Of a stretch of 64,000 bases of DNA, positions 3,883 through 12,192 are shown one piece after another. The notes under the pieces were generated by a model. That model saw only the letters and a list, made by a program, of their open reading frames with translations. It made no database searches and had not been told where the DNA came from. A program made the position numbers and the translations under genes. Position 1 is the first letter of the stretch, and every line of letters begins with the position of its first letter. This DNA is from Algoriphagus aquimarinus (GTDB lineage Bacteria > Bacteroidota > Bacteroidia > Cytophagales > Cyclobacteriaceae): positions 124,001 to 188,000 of the forward strand of contig NZ_FOKK01000010.1 of assembly GCF_900112005.1 (NCBI RefSeq), given 5' to 3'.

Positions 3883-5058
3883 TTATTTATTCTTCCTTCT
3901 TGCAATTTCCTTCTTAATCATCGAAAACTCCCGACTGCTTTGCCCAGCTATACTGGAATTCTCAGAAGCTCTGCGCATCAAGTAAGGCATCACCTTTTCC
4001 ACTGGGCCATAAGGCAAATATTTCAACACTTTATATCCAGCATCTGCCAGATTAAAAGAGATATTATCACTCATTCCATAGAGCTGCGCAAAGTAAACAA
4101 GTTCGGAATCCTTTGCTATACCTTGCTTCTCCATAAGATCCACAACAAGATAATTACTTTCTTCATTGTGCGAACCTGAGACTAAGTAAACTCCATTCTC
4201 TATGCAAAACTGCACACCGGAATTGTAATCGGTATCTGTGGCTGCTTTGTTTGGCTGAATAGGACTTGGATAGCCCATTTCTTCCGCACGATCAGCCTCT
4301 TTCTCCATATACGCACCACGAACCAATTTCGCTCCTAAGAGAAAGCCTCGTTCATGAGATAGCTTATGGGCAGCTTTCAGTCTACCTAGCATATCATGCC
4401 TATACATCTGATAGGTATTGTACACGATACAAGAATCCCGGTTGTATTTCTCCATGGCTTCGTAGGCCAAAGTGTCAATCACATCCTGAAACCATGATTC
4501 TTCCGCATCTACCAATATTTTAATACCCTTCTGAAAAGCCGCCTGACAAAGTTGATCAAAACGATTTTTCATTCGCTCAAAAGACAAACTTTCTTCCTTT
4601 GAAAGAACCTCTCCCGCCTGCACTTTTACCATAATATGGTAATCTCCAAGGCCCGTTACTTTGAAAACAGCGAAGGGCAAAGAAGCTTGTTTCTCTGCTT
4701 TCTCAATAGTTTTCAGGATTTCAGCACATGTCTGATCATAGCTGGCTTCATCCCCTTTTCCTTCTACAGAATAATCAAGGGTGGACTTCACACCATATTT
4801 TGCTAAGTCCTGAGCAGCTGAAGTACTTTCAGTAATAGTCTCTCCACCGCAGAAATGTCCAAACATGGTTTGTTTCATAATACCCTTAATAGGCAAATGA
4901 AGAGCAAAACCTATTTTGGTCATTGCAATCCCCAGATCGGAGACAAACTTGTTATTCAACATGGCAAAAACTCGGTACATTTTCCTAAGTTCTGCATCAC
5001 TTTTTGAGGCAAAGGCAACCTTTAGATTCTCAAAAGAAATATTGGGTCTGGAGGGCAT
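3883..5058 (-). CDS. proline dehydrogenase
   Basis: FAD-dependent oxidation of proline to pyrroline-5-carboxylate, the first step of proline catabolism. The sequence has the PutA-type beta/alpha-barrel signature GAKLVRGAYMEKEADRAEEMGYPSP. Further barrel segments (KILVDAEESW, YNTYQMYR) and the terminal YLMRRASENSS region, which contacts FAD and substrate, are also present. It is a stand-alone monofunctional enzyme: no aldehyde dehydrogenase domain follows. An upstream GTG/ATG at 5079 would give seven more residues. However, a TATCTTTG promoter element covers 5077-5084, so the ATG at 5058 (MPSRPN, 391 residues) is preferred. Confidence 0.93.
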   Translation of the reverse strand: MPSRPNISFENLKVAFASKSDAELRKMYRVFAMLNNKFVSDLGIAMTKIGFALHLPIKGIMKQTMFGHFCGGETITESTSAAQDLAKYGVKSTLDYSVEGKGDEASYDQTCAEILKTIEKAEKQASLPFAVFKVTGLGDYHIMVKVQAGEVLSKEESLSFERMKNRFDQLCQAAFQKGIKILVDAEESWFQDVIDTLAYEAMEKYNRDSCIVYNTYQMYRHDMLGRLKAAHKLSHERGFLLGAKLVRGAYMEKEADRAEEMGYPSPIQPNKAATDTDYNSGVQFCIENGVYLVSGSHNEESNYLVVDLMEKQGIAKDSELVYFAQLYGMSDNISFNLADAGYKVLKYLPYGPVEKVMPYLMRRASENSSIAGQSSREFSMIKKEIARRKNK

Positions 5059-5076
5059 AGTCCTGAAATAAAGCTG

Positions 5077-5084
5077 CAAAGATA
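5077..5084 (-). promoter_or_regulatory. putative -7 promoter element of proline dehydrogenase
   Basis: On the minus strand the sequence reads TATCTTTG, an exact match to the Bacteroidetes -7 consensus TAnnTTTG. It is about 19 bases upstream of the ATG at 5058. No clear -33 TTTG lies at the usual distance, so this is a partial promoter call. Confidence 0.5.
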
Positions 5085-5492: not shown

Positions 5493-5523
5493 TTTGTTTT
5501 TAAAAATGACCACTTTACATTTG
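5493..5523 (+). promoter_or_regulatory. promoter of the Phe/Tyr operon
   Basis: A -33 TTTG at 5493-5496 and a -7 TACATTTG at 5516-5523 are separated by 19 bases, fitting the Bacteroidetes consensus. Transcription should start near 5527-5530, at or next to the ATG of the leader peptide (5528). The leader would then be translated from a leaderless or almost leaderless transcript. Confidence 0.75.
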
Positions 5524-5527
5524 GCAC

Positions 5528-5623
5528 ATGATTAACACAGCAGCGACATATTTTAGCTTCTTTTACTTTTACTTTCGAAGACAAAATCGAATCGGAGTTG
5601 TGTATTGCCTAGCCAAAAACTAA
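5528..5623 (+). CDS. Phe/Tyr-rich leader peptide of an attenuator
   Basis: A 31-codon open frame (ATG 5528, TAA 5621-5623). Codons 8-16 read YFSFFYFYF, i.e. five Phe and three Tyr codons out of nine; Tyr26 is also present and there is no Trp. It sits between a consensus promoter and an intrinsic terminator just before the DAHP synthase/chorismate mutase gene. This is the expected layout for ribosome-mediated attenuation. The ribosome should stall on this run when Phe-tRNA or Tyr-tRNA is scarce. The peptide has no other recognisable feature and is probably functional only as a regulatory translation event. Confidence 0.85.
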   Translation: MINTAATYFSFFYFYFRRQNRIGVVYCLAKN

Positions 5624-5673
5624 AAAGAAAATATAACACATAAAGCCCGATTCGAAAGAGTCGGGCTTTTTTT
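5574..5673 (+). promoter_or_regulatory. transcription attenuator of the Phe/Tyr operon
   Basis: Three mutually exclusive RNA pairings can be drawn. Segment 1:2 is TTCGA 5574-5578 with TCGAA 5587-5591. The antiterminator 2:3 is TCGAATCGG 5587-5595 with CCGATTCGA 5647-5655, nine perfect pairs. The terminator 3:4 is 5642-5653 with 5658-5669. A ribosome stalled in the Phe/Tyr run (5549-5575) would cover segment 1, free segment 2 and so favour the antiterminator. Free translation would favour 1:2 and the terminator. The pairings are seen in the sequence; the mechanism is inferred from classical amino-acid attenuators. Confidence 0.8.
5642..5673 (+). terminator. attenuator terminator upstream of aroF-aroQ
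   Basis: A 12-bp stem (5642-5653 with 5658-5669, one G-U pair) closed by a GAAA tetraloop, followed by a T-rich tract. It lies only 19 bases before the ATG of the first operon gene. It therefore cannot serve an upstream plus-strand gene, as there is none other than the leader peptide. Confidence 0.93.
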
Positions 5674-5691: not shown

Positions 5692-6789
5692 ATGAAAGAA
5701 CACAAGCAAATTAAAGACTGGGGTCTAGGACTCACAGGACCAACCATCATCGCAGGACCTTGCTCTGCAGAGTCGCCAGAGCAGATCGAGCAGATCTGTA
5801 TCGAGATGAAGGAAAACAACGTCATCCCTTCTATGTTCCGTGCCGGAATCTGGAAGCCAAGAACGAGACCAGGAAGCTTCGAAGGTATAGGAGAAGAAGG
5901 ATTGAAGTGGATGGAGATTGTTCGTCATCACTTGAACATCCCTATCACGGTAGAAGTAGGAAATGCAGCTCACGCTGAAATTGCTCTTAGAAACAACGTG
6001 GACGTGGTTTGGGTAGGCGCAAGAACTACTGTAAACCCTTTCGCTGTGCAAGAAATTGCTGATGCATTGAAAGGTACTGACATCCCAGTAATGGTGAAAA
6101 ACCCAATGAATCCAGATCTTGATCTTTGGATGGGAGCTTTGGAAAGATTCCACGCAGTTGGCTTGACTAAATTGGCAGCTATTCACAGAGGTTTCTCTGA
6201 TGCTTACGATAAGAGATATAGAAACAAGCCAAACTGGTCAATGCCAATGCATTTGAAGCGCGTATGGACTGGAATGGAAGTAATCAATGACCCCTCTCAC
6301 ATCGTAGGTAAGAGAGACGGAATCCTTGAGATCTCTCAGAAAGCGATGAACTTCGGTCTTGATGGTCTAATGATCGAAACTCATCACGATCCTGACAATG
6401 CATGGTCTGATGCTAAGCAGCAGGTAACTCCAGCTCGTTTGAAAGAAATTCTTTCTGCAATAGACTTCAAGAAGCCAGTAGAATCTGAGCAGCCAAGTGA
6501 GCGTTTGAATGATTTGAGAAGAGCTGTAGATCACTTGGATGATCAATTACTTGATATTCTTCAGGAAAGATTCGCGGTGATCGACCAGATCGGTTCTCAC
6601 AAAAGAGAGCATCACTTATCTGTATTTCAATCTGATCGTTGGAAAGATGTAATGGAAAGCCGTACTCAAAAGGGTGTTGCAAAGAATCTTAGCGAGAAAT
6701 TCATGAAGGAGTTACTTTATTGTATCCATGAGGAGTCAGTAAAGCGTCAAGAGAAGCAGCTGAGAGAAGCTGATTCTGTAAAAAAGTAA
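5692..6789 (+). CDS. aroF: bifunctional DAHP synthase / chorismate mutase (type II)
   Basis: Fuses the first step of the shikimate pathway (PEP + erythrose-4-phosphate to DAHP) to chorismate mutase (chorismate to prephenate). Residues 1-265 are a DAHP synthase/KDO8PS-type barrel, with IIAGPCSAESPEQ near the N terminus and the PEP-binding KPRTRPGSFEG. Residues 275-360 are an AroQ-class chorismate mutase helical domain (LRRAVDHLDDQLLDILQERF...SHKRE). The length of 365 residues is normal for this Bacteroidetes fusion. It is the first gene of the Phe/Tyr operon, directly after the attenuator. The fusion explains why no separate chorismate mutase gene is needed in the cluster. Confidence 0.95.
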   Translation: MKEHKQIKDWGLGLTGPTIIAGPCSAESPEQIEQICIEMKENNVIPSMFRAGIWKPRTRPGSFEGIGEEGLKWMEIVRHHLNIPITVEVGNAAHAEIALRNNVDVVWVGARTTVNPFAVQEIADALKGTDIPVMVKNPMNPDLDLWMGALERFHAVGLTKLAAIHRGFSDAYDKRYRNKPNWSMPMHLKRVWTGMEVINDPSHIVGKRDGILEISQKAMNFGLDGLMIETHHDPDNAWSDAKQQVTPARLKEILSAIDFKKPVESEQPSERLNDLRRAVDHLDDQLLDILQERFAVIDQIGSHKREHHLSVFQSDRWKDVMESRTQKGVAKNLSEKFMKELLYCIHEESVKRQEKQLREADSVKK

Positions 6790-6885: not shown

Positions 6886-7929
6886 GTGAAGCCTATTATC
6901 TTTTCTGAAAATGCATCTGCAGATTTAACCGCTGTGCTCGGCGAGTTGAAATTCTCTAGTCTTTTTATTCTGACAGATGAAAACACAAAAACCCATTGCC
7001 TCCCGAGAATTGAAGAATTACTCCCTTCCAACAGCACTTTTCTTACCATAGAACCTGGCGAAAAGAATAAAACCATCGCTACCTGCATGCAAATTTGGGC
7101 TGCGATGACGGAAGCTCAGCTAGACAGAAAAGCGCTTTTCTTGAATATAGGAGGCGGAGTACTCGGAGATATGGGTGGTTTTTGTGCCAGCATTTACAAA
7201 AGAGGGATACGCTTTATTAATATGCCTACTACCCTGCTTTCACAAGTGGATGCAAGTGTAGGCGGGAAACTAGGCGTGGATTTCGAAGGTCTGAAAAACC
7301 ACCTTGGCGTATTCAATGAACCAGAAACCGTTATAGTGGCTTCTGAGTTTTTGCAAACACTCCCACAGCAGGAAATACGATCAGGATATGCAGAGATCAT
7401 CAAGCATGGGTTGATTAAGGACAAGACTTATTTTGAAAGCCTGGATTTTGACAATTGGCAGAACTCTTATTGGTCGCCACTTATTCATCATTCGGTAAGC
7501 ATCAAAAAAGAAGTAGTCACCGAAGACCCGAAAGAAGCTGGATTGAGAAAAATTCTAAACTTCGGACATACCATTGGCCATGCATTTGAAACATACTTTT
7601 TGGATGGCTTAAGACATTTATTACATGGAGAAGCCATCGCAGTCGGAATGATTTGTGAAGCCTGGCTCTCACACCAGAAATTAACACTTTCGACAGCTGA
7701 ACTTGAAACTATTCAAAGCGCACTTTTGAAAGTATATGGCAAAATAGAAATCTTAGATTCTGACCTTCCGGCAGTGCTGGATTTTTGCCTGCAAGACAAG
7801 AAAAACGAAGGCAAAGAACTGATGTTTTCCTTACTAAACGAGATCGGAGATTGCACGTACAATATCCCGATCACCCGCGAAGAAATTCGCAACTCCATTG
7901 CCTATTACCAAAACCTTACACATTCCTAA
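6886..7929 (+). CDS. aroB: 3-dehydroquinate synthase
   Basis: Converts DAHP to 3-dehydroquinate with NAD+ and a divalent metal, the second shikimate step. The 347-residue protein carries the NAD-binding GGGVLGDMGGFCAS, the substrate-loop PTTLLSQVDASVGGKLGVD, and the metal-ligand motif FGHTIGHAFE with a later His (LLHGEAIAVG). The start codon is GTG at 6886. No ATG lies in a better position, and the encoded N terminus (MKPIIFSENA) is reasonable. It lies 36 bases after the intra-operon terminator and 26 bases before aroA. Confidence 0.95.
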   Translation: MKPIIFSENASADLTAVLGELKFSSLFILTDENTKTHCLPRIEELLPSNSTFLTIEPGEKNKTIATCMQIWAAMTEAQLDRKALFLNIGGGVLGDMGGFCASIYKRGIRFINMPTTLLSQVDASVGGKLGVDFEGLKNHLGVFNEPETVIVASEFLQTLPQQEIRSGYAEIIKHGLIKDKTYFESLDFDNWQNSYWSPLIHHSVSIKKEVVTEDPKEAGLRKILNFGHTIGHAFETYFLDGLRHLLHGEAIAVGMICEAWLSHQKLTLSTAELETIQSALLKVYGKIEILDSDLPAVLDFCLQDKKNEGKELMFSLLNEIGDCTYNIPITREEIRNSIAYYQNLTHS

Positions 7930-7955
7930 TTTCCCAGACTTTGAAAACCGAAACC

Positions 7956-9182
7956 ATGGAAGTTCTTCACCTGGCTCAGAAATCCGACTTTTCCTCCACA
8001 CATATCCCTCTTCCTTCTTCCAAAAGTGAATCCAATCGAGTGTTGATTATCGATGCACTGACGGAAGGAAAAAATCAAATCAGCAATCTGGCCGAGGCTC
8101 GTGATACGCAGACGATGATCAGCTTGCTGAAAAAGAACCCGCCTCTTTATGATGTGTTGGACGCAGGCACGACTATGCGCTTTTTGACTGCTTACGCATC
8201 AATCACCAATCAAAACAAAGTAATGACTGGAACGGCACGTATGTGCGAGCGACCAATCGGGATTTTGGTGGATGCACTGAGAACTGTGGGCGCAGAAATC
8301 CATTACTTGGGCGTAGAGGGCTATCCTCCTATGGCTATTCATGGACTTTCTGAGCAGAAAAGCGATAAAGTGAAAATACGTGGAGACGTATCCAGTCAAT
8401 ACATTTCTGCCATGCTGATGATCGCTCCTTTGTTGCCAAAAGGTTTAGAAATAGAATTGGAAGGCAAAGTTGGATCAAGATCTTACATAGAAATGACTTT
8501 GGATACTATGTCTCAGTTTGGCATCAAATACACCTGGGAGGAAAACAAAATCAAAGTTGCAACCCAAGCTTATCAGCCAACAACTTTCGCTGTAGAAAGC
8601 GATTGGTCTGGTGCTGGATACTGGTTCAGCTTGCTGGCTTGTGCAGATTCTGGAGAGTTATTTTTGGCAGGATTAAAAGAAAACAGTCTTCAAGGTGATG
8701 CAAAAGTGGTGGATATCATGGCGCAACTTGGAGTAAAGAGCACGTTCCAGAATGGTGGTGTTTTATTGCAAAAGCAGGAAGTGACCGGACTGGAAACTTG
8801 GGACTTTACTCATTGCCCAGACTTAGCTCAAACTATCGCAGTAACCTGTGCTATTTTGGGACAGAATGCGACGTTCACAGGTTTAGAAAGCTTGAAAATC
8901 AAGGAAACGGATAGAATCTACGCCTTGCAGCAGGAATTGGCCAAGTTCAACGCTGACCTGAAAGAAATCGAACCTGAAGTGTATCAGGTGATCCCATCGG
9001 TGACTATGCCAGCGGATGTGAAGATTCACACCTATGATGATCACAGGATGGCGATGGCCTTTATGCCATTACTTACCAAAACCAGAGTGAGCATAGAAGA
9101 TCCTTCCGTGGTGGATAAATCTTACCCAAGCTTCTGGAAGCATTGCCAATTGGCGGGTATTTCTGTTCTGAACCAAGCTTAG
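7956..9182 (+). CDS. aroA: 3-phosphoshikimate 1-carboxyvinyltransferase (EPSP synthase)
   Basis: Transfers enolpyruvyl from PEP to shikimate-3-phosphate. The protein has 408 residues. It has the N-terminal SKSESNRVLI, the central DAGTTMRFLTAY (PEP/phosphate binding), a GDVSSQYISAMLM segment and the C-terminal DDHRMAMAF. The frame stays open upstream into aroB (to 7785), but homology begins at MEVLHL, so ATG 7956 is chosen, 26 bases after aroB. No shikimate kinase, aroE, aroD or aroC gene is in this cluster, so those steps must be encoded elsewhere. Residues GTTMRF place it near the class I/II boundary; I make no claim on glyphosate sensitivity. Confidence 0.95.
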   Translation: MEVLHLAQKSDFSSTHIPLPSSKSESNRVLIIDALTEGKNQISNLAEARDTQTMISLLKKNPPLYDVLDAGTTMRFLTAYASITNQNKVMTGTARMCERPIGILVDALRTVGAEIHYLGVEGYPPMAIHGLSEQKSDKVKIRGDVSSQYISAMLMIAPLLPKGLEIELEGKVGSRSYIEMTLDTMSQFGIKYTWEENKIKVATQAYQPTTFAVESDWSGAGYWFSLLACADSGELFLAGLKENSLQGDAKVVDIMAQLGVKSTFQNGGVLLQKQEVTGLETWDFTHCPDLAQTIAVTCAILGQNATFTGLESLKIKETDRIYALQQELAKFNADLKEIEPEVYQVIPSVTMPADVKIHTYDDHRMAMAFMPLLTKTRVSIEDPSVVDKSYPSFWKHCQLAGISVLNQA

Positions 9183-9184
9183 AA

Positions 9185-10009
9185 ATGACACAGCTCAAAA
9201 TTGCAATCCAAGGAGTTCCTGGATCATTTCACCATCAAGTAGCACTTCGCAACTTTGGAGAAGATATAGAAATCCTTGATTTTGACACCTTCCCTTCTGT
9301 TGCTAAATCTGTCGTAACTGGTGAGGCTGACTTCGGCATTATGGCAATCGAAAACTCCATTGCAGGAGCTATTTTCCCCAATTACGATCTGATAGATCGC
9401 TTTGAATTGAGCATTCGAGATGAGTATTATCTTCCTATAGGACATCAATTCATGGCTCTTCCCGGTCAAACTATTGAAGATATTACCGAGGTTCGCTCTC
9501 ATCCAATGGCACTTTTGCAGTGCAAGGCTTTTTTTGCGCAGCACCCTCATATCAGACTCAAAGAGGATACGGATACAGCATCTGTAGCACGCGATATTGC
9601 CGCTGGAAATCTGAAAGGCGTGGCTGCAATTGCATCTAGCATCGCTGCCGGGATCTATGGAATGGAAATTATTGCTTCGGATATTCAAACGATAAAAAAC
9701 AATTTTACTCGTTTTATTATTCTACAGAAAGAACCTTTGAAGCCATCTACGAGTGTAAATAAAGCTTCTACCAAAGTCACAATTCAAAATCAAAAAGGAG
9801 GCCTTGCAAAGCTCCTGACTTTGATCGCTGACAATGAAATAGACCTGAGCAAAATTCAGTCGATTCCTGTGATCGAAAAACCTTGGGAATATGCATTTTT
9901 CATAGACTTGGTTTTTGAAAATTACACAGTTTACAAGAACACAATCGAAGAAATCCAACTTAATTTTGGAGACGTTAAAATCATCGGTGAATATTTGAGT
10001 AGAAAATAA
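9185..10009 (+). CDS. pheA: prephenate dehydratase
   Basis: Decarboxylates and dehydrates prephenate to phenylpyruvate, committing flux to phenylalanine. The protein has 274 residues. Residues 1-185 form the periplasmic-binding-like catalytic domain, ending in the catalytic TRF motif (NNFTRFIIL). Residues 195-274 are an ACT domain (TIQNQKGGLAKLLTLIADNEIDLSKIQS), the usual site of allosteric phenylalanine inhibition. The start at 9185 lies 2 bases after the aroA stop. The frame is open upstream to 9143 inside aroA, but that extension is not homologous. It has no chorismate mutase domain; that activity is fused to aroF. Confidence 0.94.
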   Translation: MTQLKIAIQGVPGSFHHQVALRNFGEDIEILDFDTFPSVAKSVVTGEADFGIMAIENSIAGAIFPNYDLIDRFELSIRDEYYLPIGHQFMALPGQTIEDITEVRSHPMALLQCKAFFAQHPHIRLKEDTDTASVARDIAAGNLKGVAAIASSIAAGIYGMEIIASDIQTIKNNFTRFIILQKEPLKPSTSVNKASTKVTIQNQKGGLAKLLTLIADNEIDLSKIQSIPVIEKPWEYAFFIDLVFENYTVYKNTIEEIQLNFGDVKIIGEYLSRK

Positions 10010-10111: not shown

Positions 10112-11260
10112 ATGAAAGGTTTCGCAGATAGAATTTCGACCGTTGAGGAATATTACTTTTCAGCAAAACTCCGTGAAGTCAATCAACTGATTGCTGACGG
10201 GAAACCTATTATCAATCTAGGAATTGGTAGCCCAGATCTAGCTCCTGACAGGAAGGTCACAGAGGCACTGAAAAACACCGCCGACAATCAACAATCACAT
10301 GGATACCAGACTTACATCGGTATCCCGGAATTGCGTGCGTCAATCGCTCATTATTATGCTGAGTCTTATGGCGTGCGATTAAATCCAGCTAAGGAAATTC
10401 TTCCTATGATGGGTTCAAAAGAGGCCATCATGCACTTGAGCATGACATTTTTGAATCCTGGCGATCAAGTACTGATCCCGGATCCTGGCTATCCAACTTA
10501 TGCTTCGGTCACCAAATTAGTTGGTGCAGAAGCTATTTATTACTCTTTGGATCTAGCGAAAAAAGGCAGACCTAACTTGGAGGAATTGGAGAATTCTGAT
10601 CTGAGTAAAGTGAAAATCATGTGGATCAATTATCCGCACATGCCTACTGGAGCTCCAGGAAGCAGAGAGATTTTGACAGAACTGGTGGCTTTTGCCAAAA
10701 AGCATGACATCGTGCTACTTCACGACAATCCATACAGCCATATTCTGACGAAAGAACCTATCAGTATTTTATCCATTCCTGGTGCAAATGAAGTGGCGAT
10801 GGAGTTGAATTCACTCAGCAAAACCTTCAATATGCCCGGCTGGAGAGTTGGGATGCTGCTAGGGAGAGCGGACTGGATTTCGGAAGTATTGAAAGTCAAA
10901 AGCAATATGGATTCCGGGATGTTCCTAGGAATTCAAAAAGGCGCAATTGCCGCGTTGAACCTTGGTGAGTCTTGGTTTTCTGACTTGGAGCATGTCTATC
11001 AAAGTCGCAGAAAATTGGTTTGGAAACTTGCTGACAAATTAAATCTAAGCTATTCTACCACTGATTCCGGTCTTTTTGTTTGGTGCAAAGTGCCAGAAGG
11101 AAAAACTGCCGATCAGTTAGTAGATGAACTACTTTACGATAAAAACATATTCATCACACCTGGGAAAATCTTCGGATCGCAGGGAGAAGGATATGTCAGA
11201 TTTTCACTTTGTATGCCCGAATTCAAGATTTTGGAGGCAATTAATCGAATTAAAATTTAA
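10112..11260 (+). CDS. PLP-dependent aminotransferase, class I/II (probable aromatic aminotransferase)
   Basis: Fold-type I aminotransferase of 382 residues. It carries the PLP-lysine segment NSLSKTFNMPGWRVG, the substrate-binding region HDNPYSHI, the PDPGYPTY loop and a C-terminal arginine motif (GYVRFSLC). Its position between prephenate dehydratase and prephenate dehydrogenase makes the last transamination of phenylpyruvate and 4-hydroxyphenylpyruvate to Phe and Tyr its likely job. The family alone (aspartate/LL-DAP-like class I) does not fix the substrate. A 102-base gap containing a strong inverted repeat separates it from pheA. It ends 6 bases before tyrA. Confidence 0.88.
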   Translation: MKGFADRISTVEEYYFSAKLREVNQLIADGKPIINLGIGSPDLAPDRKVTEALKNTADNQQSHGYQTYIGIPELRASIAHYYAESYGVRLNPAKEILPMMGSKEAIMHLSMTFLNPGDQVLIPDPGYPTYASVTKLVGAEAIYYSLDLAKKGRPNLEELENSDLSKVKIMWINYPHMPTGAPGSREILTELVAFAKKHDIVLLHDNPYSHILTKEPISILSIPGANEVAMELNSLSKTFNMPGWRVGMLLGRADWISEVLKVKSNMDSGMFLGIQKGAIAALNLGESWFSDLEHVYQSRRKLVWKLADKLNLSYSTTDSGLFVWCKVPEGKTADQLVDELLYDKNIFITPGKIFGSQGEGYVRFSLCMPEFKILEAINRIKI

Positions 11261-11266
11261 GCTAGT

Positions 11267-12115
11267 ATGCAAAAGTTACACATTATCGGTTTAGGACTTC
11301 TTGGAGGTTCTTTTGCTTTGGCAGCCAAAAATAAATTTGAGAATCTGGTCATCACTGGCTATGATTCCAGCGAGAAAAACCTGCAGGATGCACTTAATCT
11401 TGGGATCATCCAGGAAGCTAAAGAAGCTCCAGATGCAGATACAGATATCGTGATTTTGGCTACTCCGGCAGATACGCTGAGCAGTTTGCTTCTGGCAACT
11501 CTTGATCAAATTGGAGAAAACACCTTGGTTTTTGATGTAGGTTCTACCAAAGCAAAACTATGTGAGCTTGTCGCTGATCATCCAAAGAGAAAACAATACC
11601 TAGCAGCTCACCCTATTGCAGGTACTGAGTATTCGGGACCAAATGCTGCCTTTGCCGGATTGCTGGACAGAAAAGTAACTATCATCTGTGAACTTGAAAA
11701 AACAGATTTACAACTCAAAGAAAAGGCTTACGAGCTTTTTGATGCGCTAAATCTGAAACTGAGATTTATGGATGCAGAAGAGCATGACCGTCACTTGGCG
11801 TTCGTTTCTCACCTATCTCACATCTCTTCCTTTATGCTGGGTAAAACTGTCTTGCAGAAAATGGAAGATGAGAAAAACATCTTCGACATGGCTGGTTCAG
11901 GCTTCTCCTCTACTGTGCGACTCGCTAAATCAAGTCCCGCAATGTGGGCTCCTATATTCACTGAAAATAAGGACAATATTTTGTCTGCCTTGGACGGTTA
12001 TATTTCGAATCTGTCTGCTTTCCGTGAAAAAATTGCCGCAAGCGATGGACAAGCATTATCAGATGATATGACGGAAATCAATAAGATCAGAGATATTCTG
12101 GATTTGGAAAAATAA
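11267..12115 (+). CDS. tyrA: prephenate dehydrogenase
   Basis: Oxidatively decarboxylates prephenate to 4-hydroxyphenylpyruvate for tyrosine. The 282-residue protein starts with a Rossmann dinucleotide motif (GLGLLGGSFALA, about residues 6-17). It contains the AHPIAGTEYSGP substrate loop and a helical C-terminal dimerisation domain (FVSHLSHISSFMLG). There is no ACT or chorismate mutase domain. It is the last gene of the Phe/Tyr operon, 6 bases after the aminotransferase, and is followed by a strong terminator. Confidence 0.94.
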   Translation: MQKLHIIGLGLLGGSFALAAKNKFENLVITGYDSSEKNLQDALNLGIIQEAKEAPDADTDIVILATPADTLSSLLLATLDQIGENTLVFDVGSTKAKLCELVADHPKRKQYLAAHPIAGTEYSGPNAAFAGLLDRKVTIICELEKTDLQLKEKAYELFDALNLKLRFMDAEEHDRHLAFVSHLSHISSFMLGKTVLQKMEDEKNIFDMAGSGFSSTVRLAKSSPAMWAPIFTENKDNILSALDGYISNLSAFREKIAASDGQALSDDMTEINKIRDILDLEK

Positions 12116-12158
12116 ACTGATTTCGGATATCAGATATATGATTTCGGTTTTATAGGAG

Positions 12159-12192
12159 CGCCATTTGTAGAAATACAGGTGGCGTTTTTTTT
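12159..12192 (+). terminator. terminator of the Phe/Tyr operon
   Basis: An 11-bp stem (12159-12169 with 12174-12184, two G-U pairs) with a GAAA tetraloop and eight following T. It closes the operon 43 bases after tyrA. Confidence 0.92.

Follow-up and report, generated by a model that had tools for sequence, protein, structure and literature searches.

A probable ribosome-mediated attenuator for phenylalanine and tyrosine, predicted to be leaderless, heads the aromatic operon of Algoriphagus aquimarinus and related Cyclobacteriaceae

How might one leader RNA control an operon common to phenylalanine and tyrosine synthesis? The question is raised by a short leader ahead of the aromatic operon of Algoriphagus aquimarinus, within the stretch of 64,000 nucleotides analyzed here (the window). 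The reading that we favor, with a probability of roughly 0.87, is that this leader is a ribosome-mediated transcription attenuator sensing charged tRNA-Phe and tRNA-Tyr and controlling the operon from aroF-aroQ to tyrA. The anatomy on which the original prediction of such an attenuator rested was confirmed (Table 1), and the interpretation itself is supported by the conservation described below.

Table 1. Features of the leader, the aromatic operon and their surroundings (positions in the window)
Feature	Positions	Strand	Basis or remark
Upstream divergent gene	3883-5079	opposite to leader and operon	
Promoter: -33 TTTG (5493-5496), 19-nt spacer, -7 box TACATTTG (5516-5523)	5493..5523	+	
Predicted transcription start, A of leader ATG	5528	+	promoter spacing
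Leader peptide ORF, 31 codons, stop codon included in span	5528..5623	+	MINTAATYFSFFYFYFRRQNRIGVVYCLAKN
Region 1, outer arm of stem 1:2, pairs with 5597-5603 (less certain)	5535..5541	+	MFE fold, covariation counts
Regulatory codons 8-16, YFSFFYFYF	5549..5575	+	codon table
Region 2, antiterminator 5' arm, codons 20-23	5587..5595	+	TCGAATCGG
Stem 1:2, 3' arm	5597..5603	+	MFE fold, covariation counts
Intrinsic terminator stem-loop 3:4, then U-rich tract to ~5677	5642..5669	+	
Region 3, antiterminator 3' arm, within terminator 5' arm	5647..5655	+	
aroF-aroQ, DAHP synthase with chorismate mutase	5692..6789	+	PF00793, PF01817
aroB, 3-dehydroquinate synthase	6886..7929 (start approximate)	+	PF01761, PF24621
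aroA, EPSP synthase	7953..9182 (start approximate)	+	PF00275
pheA, prephenate dehydratase with ACT domain	9185..10009	+	PF00800, PF01842
Class I/II aminotransferase	10112..11260	+	PF00155
tyrA, prephenate dehydrogenase	11267..12115	+	PF02153, PF20463; NF006307 above cut-off
Terminator-like hairpin closing operon	12154..12189	+	

By Pfam, the genes of the operon follow the order aroF-aroQ, aroB, aroA, pheA, aminotransferase gene and tyrA. All six genes were found in the same order in 72 of 80 named loci; the remaining 8 showed just the first three or five of them, short contigs being the expected cause. A second aroF-aroQ copy, about 45% identical, lies directly upstream of the attenuated copy in G005, G007, G015, G022, G031 and G035, and the DNA upstream of the two second copies that were read (L123 and L126) carried no such leader.

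The 31-codon leader with YFSFFYFYF at codons 8 to 16 was present as first described. With nested starts taken separately, a density of 8 F or Y residues per 9 codons was reached by 1 of the 1,022 ATG ORFs of 10 to 60 codons on both strands of the window. The leader is a short ORF, presumably translated, that holds codons for the products of the operon. Its conservation was followed in 110 related aroF-aroQ loci (30 plus 80, with some species represented more than once), a leader being defined by at least 5 F/Y in 9 codons upstream of aroF-aroQ. It was found in 109 of them, the sole miss (L064) lying on a contig that ends 195 nt upstream. These 109 loci collapse to 88 distinct upstream sequences, and every one of the 88 leaders contained both Phe and Tyr, with totals of 468 F, 348 Y and 5 W.

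Codon counts were made on the 77 leaders of exactly 31 codons, leaving out 11 others of 26 to 30 codons. The amino acid was constant at codons 9, 14, 15 and 16, and other positions of the run exchanged F, Y and W yet remained aromatic: codon 8 was Y in 68, F in 5 and W in 4, codon 11 was F in 76 and a lone S in 1, codon 12 was F in 72 and Y in 5, and codon 13 was Y in 75 and F in 2. The third bases of several codons of the run varied by synonymous exchange. Two indels within the ORF, of 3 and 6 nt (L052 and L098), were observed among 46 aligned sequences.

The terminator contains 12 pairs, one of them G-U, closed by a GAAA loop and followed by TTTTATTT. This hairpin was predicted correctly; the gap after position 5673 is 18 nt rather than the 19 given, and 22 nt separate the stem itself from the aroF ATG. 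Given the order of the elements, any transcript begun upstream of 5642 must pass the terminator before aroF. Since the gene upstream lies on the other strand, transcripts reaching aroF come most simply from the leader promoter, and with the terminator so close to aroF these transcripts must cross it. Folding of the 198-nt region gave a z score of -3.2, with 2 of 200 shuffles equally good, and the terminator was found in all 77 leaders of 31 codons. In a few species an insert of about 90 nt separates the terminator from aroF (L003 1389-1500, L004, L037 and L064); these inserts have CATGCGAGATTCCAT in common, and the same 15-mer occurs once elsewhere, in L071.

The good conservation of the ORF and the strong terminator that follows it would also suit a conserved small protein gene with a terminator of its own, the operon being driven by another promoter. 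Against this, the gap between terminator and aroF is too short to hold a promoter, the gene upstream runs on the other strand, and the peptide gave zero family matches against NCBIfam. The complementarity described next would, moreover, be left unexplained by a small protein gene, and we regard this alternative as extremely unlikely.

As predicted, region 2 (TCGAATCGG) is the exact reverse complement of region 3 over 9 bp. The resulting antiterminator 2:3 and the terminator 3:4 would be mutually exclusive, since they share region 3. Both pairings were counted after the 77 leaders of 31 codons had been reduced to 73 distinct rows: the 9 pairs of the antiterminator formed in 650 of 657 cells and the 12 pairs of the terminator in 868 of 876. 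The third bases at 5590 and 5593, in codons 21 and 22 and within region 2, were invariant in 77/77; at 5596, the third base of codon 23 and one base outside region 2, A was found in 67, T in 8 and C in 2. For its part, U5651 was invariant in all 73 sequences, its terminator partner being G in 60 and mispaired in 8. Since a C at this position would strengthen the terminator while disrupting the antiterminator, region 3 looks to be held by the antiterminator. The patterns at 5590/5593 and at U5651 tell selection for the antiterminator apart from selection acting on the peptide or the terminator, and neither amounts to covariation proof. The 2:3 stem showed zero double compensatory changes and one G-U type, its bases being nearly invariant, so that covariation offers no proof of the stem.

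Stem 1:2 is the least secure of the three, with weaker support than 2:3 and 3:4. Its core of 7 pairs was paired in 76% of cells. Double-changed cells numbered 20, whereas the shuffles averaged 10; this count was above all 500 shuffles, in a control that leaves relatedness in place, and above the slid versions of the stem. The double-changed pairs and the pair types were matched by 498 and 445 of 500 shuffles, respectively. In a 9-pair version of the stem, a slid control also reached 20 double-changed cells. RNAalifold, run on 46 sequences, picked a 4-bp hairpin (5574-5577/5588-5591) over the stem 1:2 of the MFE fold, and that hairpin had a double change in one sequence. Thus, of what was expected from an alignment of orthologous leaders, the aromatic codon run, the antiterminator 2:3 and the terminator 3:4 were kept, without covariation in 2:3 and with weaker support for 1:2.

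The order YFxFFYFYFR is strongly kept in the close group, as it would be if the peptide itself arrested the ribosome in response to free Phe or Tyr, the codons mattering through the peptide alone. In the wider family, however, the run varies in length and order (FYFFFYF, FYFYFYF, FYYYYFYF and YFYFFYFF), with no fixed arrest motif, and codons 21 and 22, past the run, hardly vary at any base, as RNA pairing would need. Arrest by the nascent chain is therefore judged very unlikely.

A promoter had been predicted upstream of the leader, and one is present. It is not of the sigma-70 type but of the Bacteroidota -33/-7 type, and its leaderless geometry had been missed. Among the 88 distinct upstream sequences, the -7 box follows the consensus TAnnTTT[G/A] and is separated from the ATG by 4 nt in 86 and by 5 nt in 2 (the in-frame ATG having been re-chosen in three rows), and TTTG lies 19 nt upstream of the -7 box in 73. 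Column conservation, taken over 86 sequences, was high at -35 to -22, at -12 to -5 and at the ATG, the -33 and -7 boxes being the best conserved upstream blocks. Further loci of the family, some from species possibly counted already, had the box 4 nt before the ATG in 23 of 26 cases and 5 nt before it in 3. The Shine-Dalgarno (SD)-like words AGGAG, GGAGG and AAGGA were absent from the 20 nt before the ATG in 88/88; Bacteroidota mostly lack Shine-Dalgarno sites. The sigma-A box of Flavobacterium psychrophilum occupies positions -12 to -5 relative to the start of transcription (PMC9723704). From this position and the 4-nt spacing, we infer a start at the A of the AUG, and the leader message is predicted to be leaderless.

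The same attenuator could instead start upstream of the ATG, the promoter spacing having another cause. The start-site data come from other Bacteroidota, in which such messages are a minority: leaderless mRNAs make up 5.5% in F. psychrophilum (PMC9723704), and 5' UTRs under 10 nt make up 3.7% in Bacteroides thetaiotaomicron (PMC7366714). Most pheA leaders at the level of the class, described below, also lack the 4-nt spacing. The constancy of that spacing in the 88 sequences, the conservation of the two boxes and the absence of the three SD-like words argue against an upstream start, which we hold to be unlikely. A scan of the A. aquimarinus genome for the promoter with an ATG 3 to 6 nt away yielded 6 matches, against 2 in a reversed control, so that this strict geometry is rare in the genome. 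The six were the leader itself, two matches before long ORFs (L133 and L134) and three before very short ORFs (L131, L135 and L136).

In the attenuator that we propose, transcription would begin with the A of the leader AUG and the first ribosome would load at nucleotide 1. The stalling and the direction of the response we infer from the arrangement of the elements. When Phe-tRNA or Tyr-tRNA is short, the ribosome would stall in codons 8 to 16, its leading edge just short of region 2 (under an assumed footprint, near 5585 when codon 16 occupies the A site); region 2 would then pair with region 3 before region 4 emerges, no terminator would form and the operon would be read. When both tRNAs are charged, the ribosome would move on across region 2 as regions 3 and 4 come out of the polymerase, the terminator 3:4 would form and transcription would stop before aroF; stem 1:2 may afterwards hold region 2.

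Folding was carried out with a masked ribosome in an equilibrium model, with a 30-nt mask as the assumed footprint and the RNA extending to 5657 or to 5677. For RNA to 5657, the probability of 2:3 was 0.96 to 0.98 with codon 2, 8, 9 or 11 to 16 in the A site (0.98 for codons 8, 9 and 11 to 16), 0.77 at codon 17, 0.0 at codons 20, 23 and 26, and 0.86 at codon 29; it was 0.97 both on the stop codon and without a ribosome. For RNA to 5677, with region 4 out, the terminator 3:4 won in every fold. According to these results the decision would be kinetic, a stall freeing region 2 in time and a passing ribosome blocking it. Since 2:3 also forms in ribosome-free RNA and with the ribosome at the stop codon, termination without translation would have to rest on kinetics or on a moving ribosome, and the preference of translation-free RNA for 2:3 in the equilibrium model is a point against the simple textbook picture. 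Region 2 lies within the leader ORF, 25 nt before the stop codon, so that the clearance step would differ in detail from that of the textbook trp attenuator.

Within the family Cyclobacteriaceae, a covariance model built from 46 sequences matched 55 of 148 genomes, which represent 30 of the 76 genera. In the class it matched 10 of 296 genomes, comprising 6 in the family, 1 with a pheA leader (G292, locus L137) and 3 that look like chance; these last, outside the family (G359, G394 and G593), are plain terminators by look. A second match in G034 (L270) also looks like chance. Divergent loci of the family preceded DAHP synthase genes (L271-L280; L271 by Pfam, the rest by eye), aminotransferase genes (L281 and L284) or prephenate dehydratase genes (L282, L283 and L285). 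Since these genes belong to the same pathway, the divergent elements were counted in favor of an attenuator. Throughout L271-L286 (n = 16), the distance from box to ATG was 4 nt in 7 loci, 5 nt in 3 and 6 nt in 1, and the box was unmatched in 5.

In a search for pheA across the class, 17 of 60 genomes were matched, giving 16 loci besides that of the window. A short aromatic-rich ORF and, after it, a terminator preceded pheA in 11 of the 16 (L159-L162, L165-L167, L169, L171, L172 and L173, with L169 from the family). Within the order, such leaders with a terminator were found in L220 and L231 among 29 new loci (loci were available for 30 of 44 matches), and L137 is a further aromatic-rich pheA leader with a terminator. 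Thus, a joint Phe/Tyr leader is common in the class, contrary to the initial expectation that it would be unusual. Trp codons are also held by the pheA leaders L160, L161, L162, L167, L169 and L220, which may therefore sense all three aromatic amino acids. The box was matched by regular expression 4 nt from the ATG in 1 of the 11 class pheA leaders (L162), and the leaderless spacing is mainly a trait of the family.

Among distant aroF homologues of other families of the order and second copies (L111-L130), the combination was absent in 19 of 19 informative regions, the one other region being 129 nt long and uninformative. A Tyr/Trp-rich short ORF was seen upstream of the aroF homologue in L115. 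The pattern FFYFYF[R/S] gave 21 matches in 18 of 296 genomes of the phylum; five fell in the aroF element (L138-L142) and one in the pheA leader L137, and the other 15 were judged from their frames to be chance.

The covariance model also matched a leader, MTKRHSYHYHYYYASPVRIGSCMS, before a gene for a biopterin-dependent aromatic amino acid hydroxylase (L286; PF00351). Phenylalanine hydroxylase makes Tyr from Phe. A survey of this gene gave 45 matches, 30 of them with loci read, 9 outside the genus and 21 within it. Tyr-rich, Phe-poor leaders with a terminator preceded the gene in 3 of the 9 loci outside the genus (L291, L293 and L296; L291 by eye), and in another of the 9 (L298) the gene was not located by the script. 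Like L286, these three leaders belong to Cytophagales other than Algoriphagus. Composition differed between 20 aro/phe leaders (95 F and 72 Y) and 4 phhA leaders (1 F and 24 Y; Fisher p = 3e-7), in a hand-picked comparison that left out the Algoriphagus phhA leader and six pheA leaders, all six with both Phe and Tyr.

Within the genus, 15 of 21 hydroxylase loci, including that of the A. aquimarinus genome (L320), had a 17-codon leader of the form M[N/S]PTPRT[F/Y][V/I]HHS... with a terminator after it; inspection by eye placed a -7-like box 4 nt before its ATG in L304, L308, L313, L319 and L320. In the A. aquimarinus genome (G000:C17), this leader, MNPTPRTFVHHSYYHLR, the second in the genome to resemble an attenuator, lies about 220 nt upstream of the hydroxylase start, with the terminator GGCCTATTCC and a post-stop antiterminator GG[A/G]ATAGG, and looks leaderless; the same type was seen in 14 other loci of the genus among L292 and L303-L319. 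Its composition is F 1, Y 2 and H 3. His thus exceeds Tyr in the genus-type leader, and its His codons fall outside what a Phe/Tyr codon logic explains. Three his operons of Algoriphagus (L177, L189 and L197) have a leader with His codons (e.g., ...VHHFHHSS) before hisG. The -7 box of these leaders lies 9 nt before the ATG, which suggests a short 5' UTR rather than a leaderless start.

A broader proposal, to which we give about even odds, is that Cyclobacteriaceae, and perhaps other Cytophagales, make use of a set of related leaderless attenuators whose promoter is fused to the start codon. The first ribosome would load at nucleotide 1 and stay coupled to RNA polymerase, and the codon run would be tuned to the product of the operon, Phe plus Tyr for the common aromatic operon and mostly Tyr for phenylalanine hydroxylase. 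Attenuation by a ribosome depends on a tight link between translation and transcription, and in the literature examined, the leader-peptide systems of Bacteroidota are so far predicted only. A conserved, apparently leaderless case would offer a compact, testable system for coupling and for SD-independent initiation in this phylum, and a single switch would set the total flux into both amino acids together.

Ribosome-mediated attenuation belongs to the classic modes of gene control. In the pheA, trp and his attenuators of Proteobacteria, a short ORF with codons for the end product is followed by exclusive 2:3 and 3:4 stems and a U-run terminator before the operon. The element described here shares these parts and differs in its mixture of Phe and Tyr codons, in a region 2 lying inside the ORF, in its predicted leaderless start and in its phylum. 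In Rfam covariance-model searches of the window, Phe_leader (RF01859) scored 23.5 bits against a gathering score of 55, Bacteroid-trp (RF01692), an RNA with Trp codons before trp genes, was absent from the matches, and neither the T-box nor any other family reached its gathering score. Leaderless leader ORFs also occur in mycobacteria.

In 2010, leader-peptide systems were described as known only from Proteobacteria and Actinobacteria, apart from a new case in Firmicutes (PMC2965389). The attenuated trpL RNA of Sinorhizobium meliloti starts at the ATG of its leader ORF (PMC7298713), as is predicted here, but that system has Trp codons, precedes trpE(G) and belongs to the Alphaproteobacteria. 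A table of predictions for Shewanella lists, with reference to a study of E. coli, a Tyr-tRNA-sensing attenuator for aroF (PMC2659441), likewise a DAHP synthase gene attenuated by an aromatic tRNA, although sensing Tyr only and in Gammaproteobacteria. Attenuators are also in print for Bacteroidota. The Bacteroid-trp RNA is listed as a predicted cis-regulatory motif of Bacteroidetes (PMC2864571, Table 1). In B. thetaiotaomicron, a putative attenuator was placed, by a structure-based prediction, before the Phe and Tyr supraoperon pheA > hisHb > aroAIbeta-aroQ > tyrA (PMC1173090, Table 7); the gene order there is different, and the Table 7 account gives no leader peptide or codon run. Leader-peptide attenuators with the same proposed mechanism were predicted before amino acid operons of F. 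psychrophilum, in an account that, in its passage on them, names neither Phe/Tyr nor a leaderless case (PMC9723704). No leaderless or joint Phe and Tyr attenuator of Bacteroidota was found in the open-access literature searched, which does not prove its absence from print. What appears to be new relative to all these systems is the combination, namely, a conserved, predicted leaderless, joint Phe and Tyr attenuator heading the whole aromatic operon in Cyclobacteriaceae.
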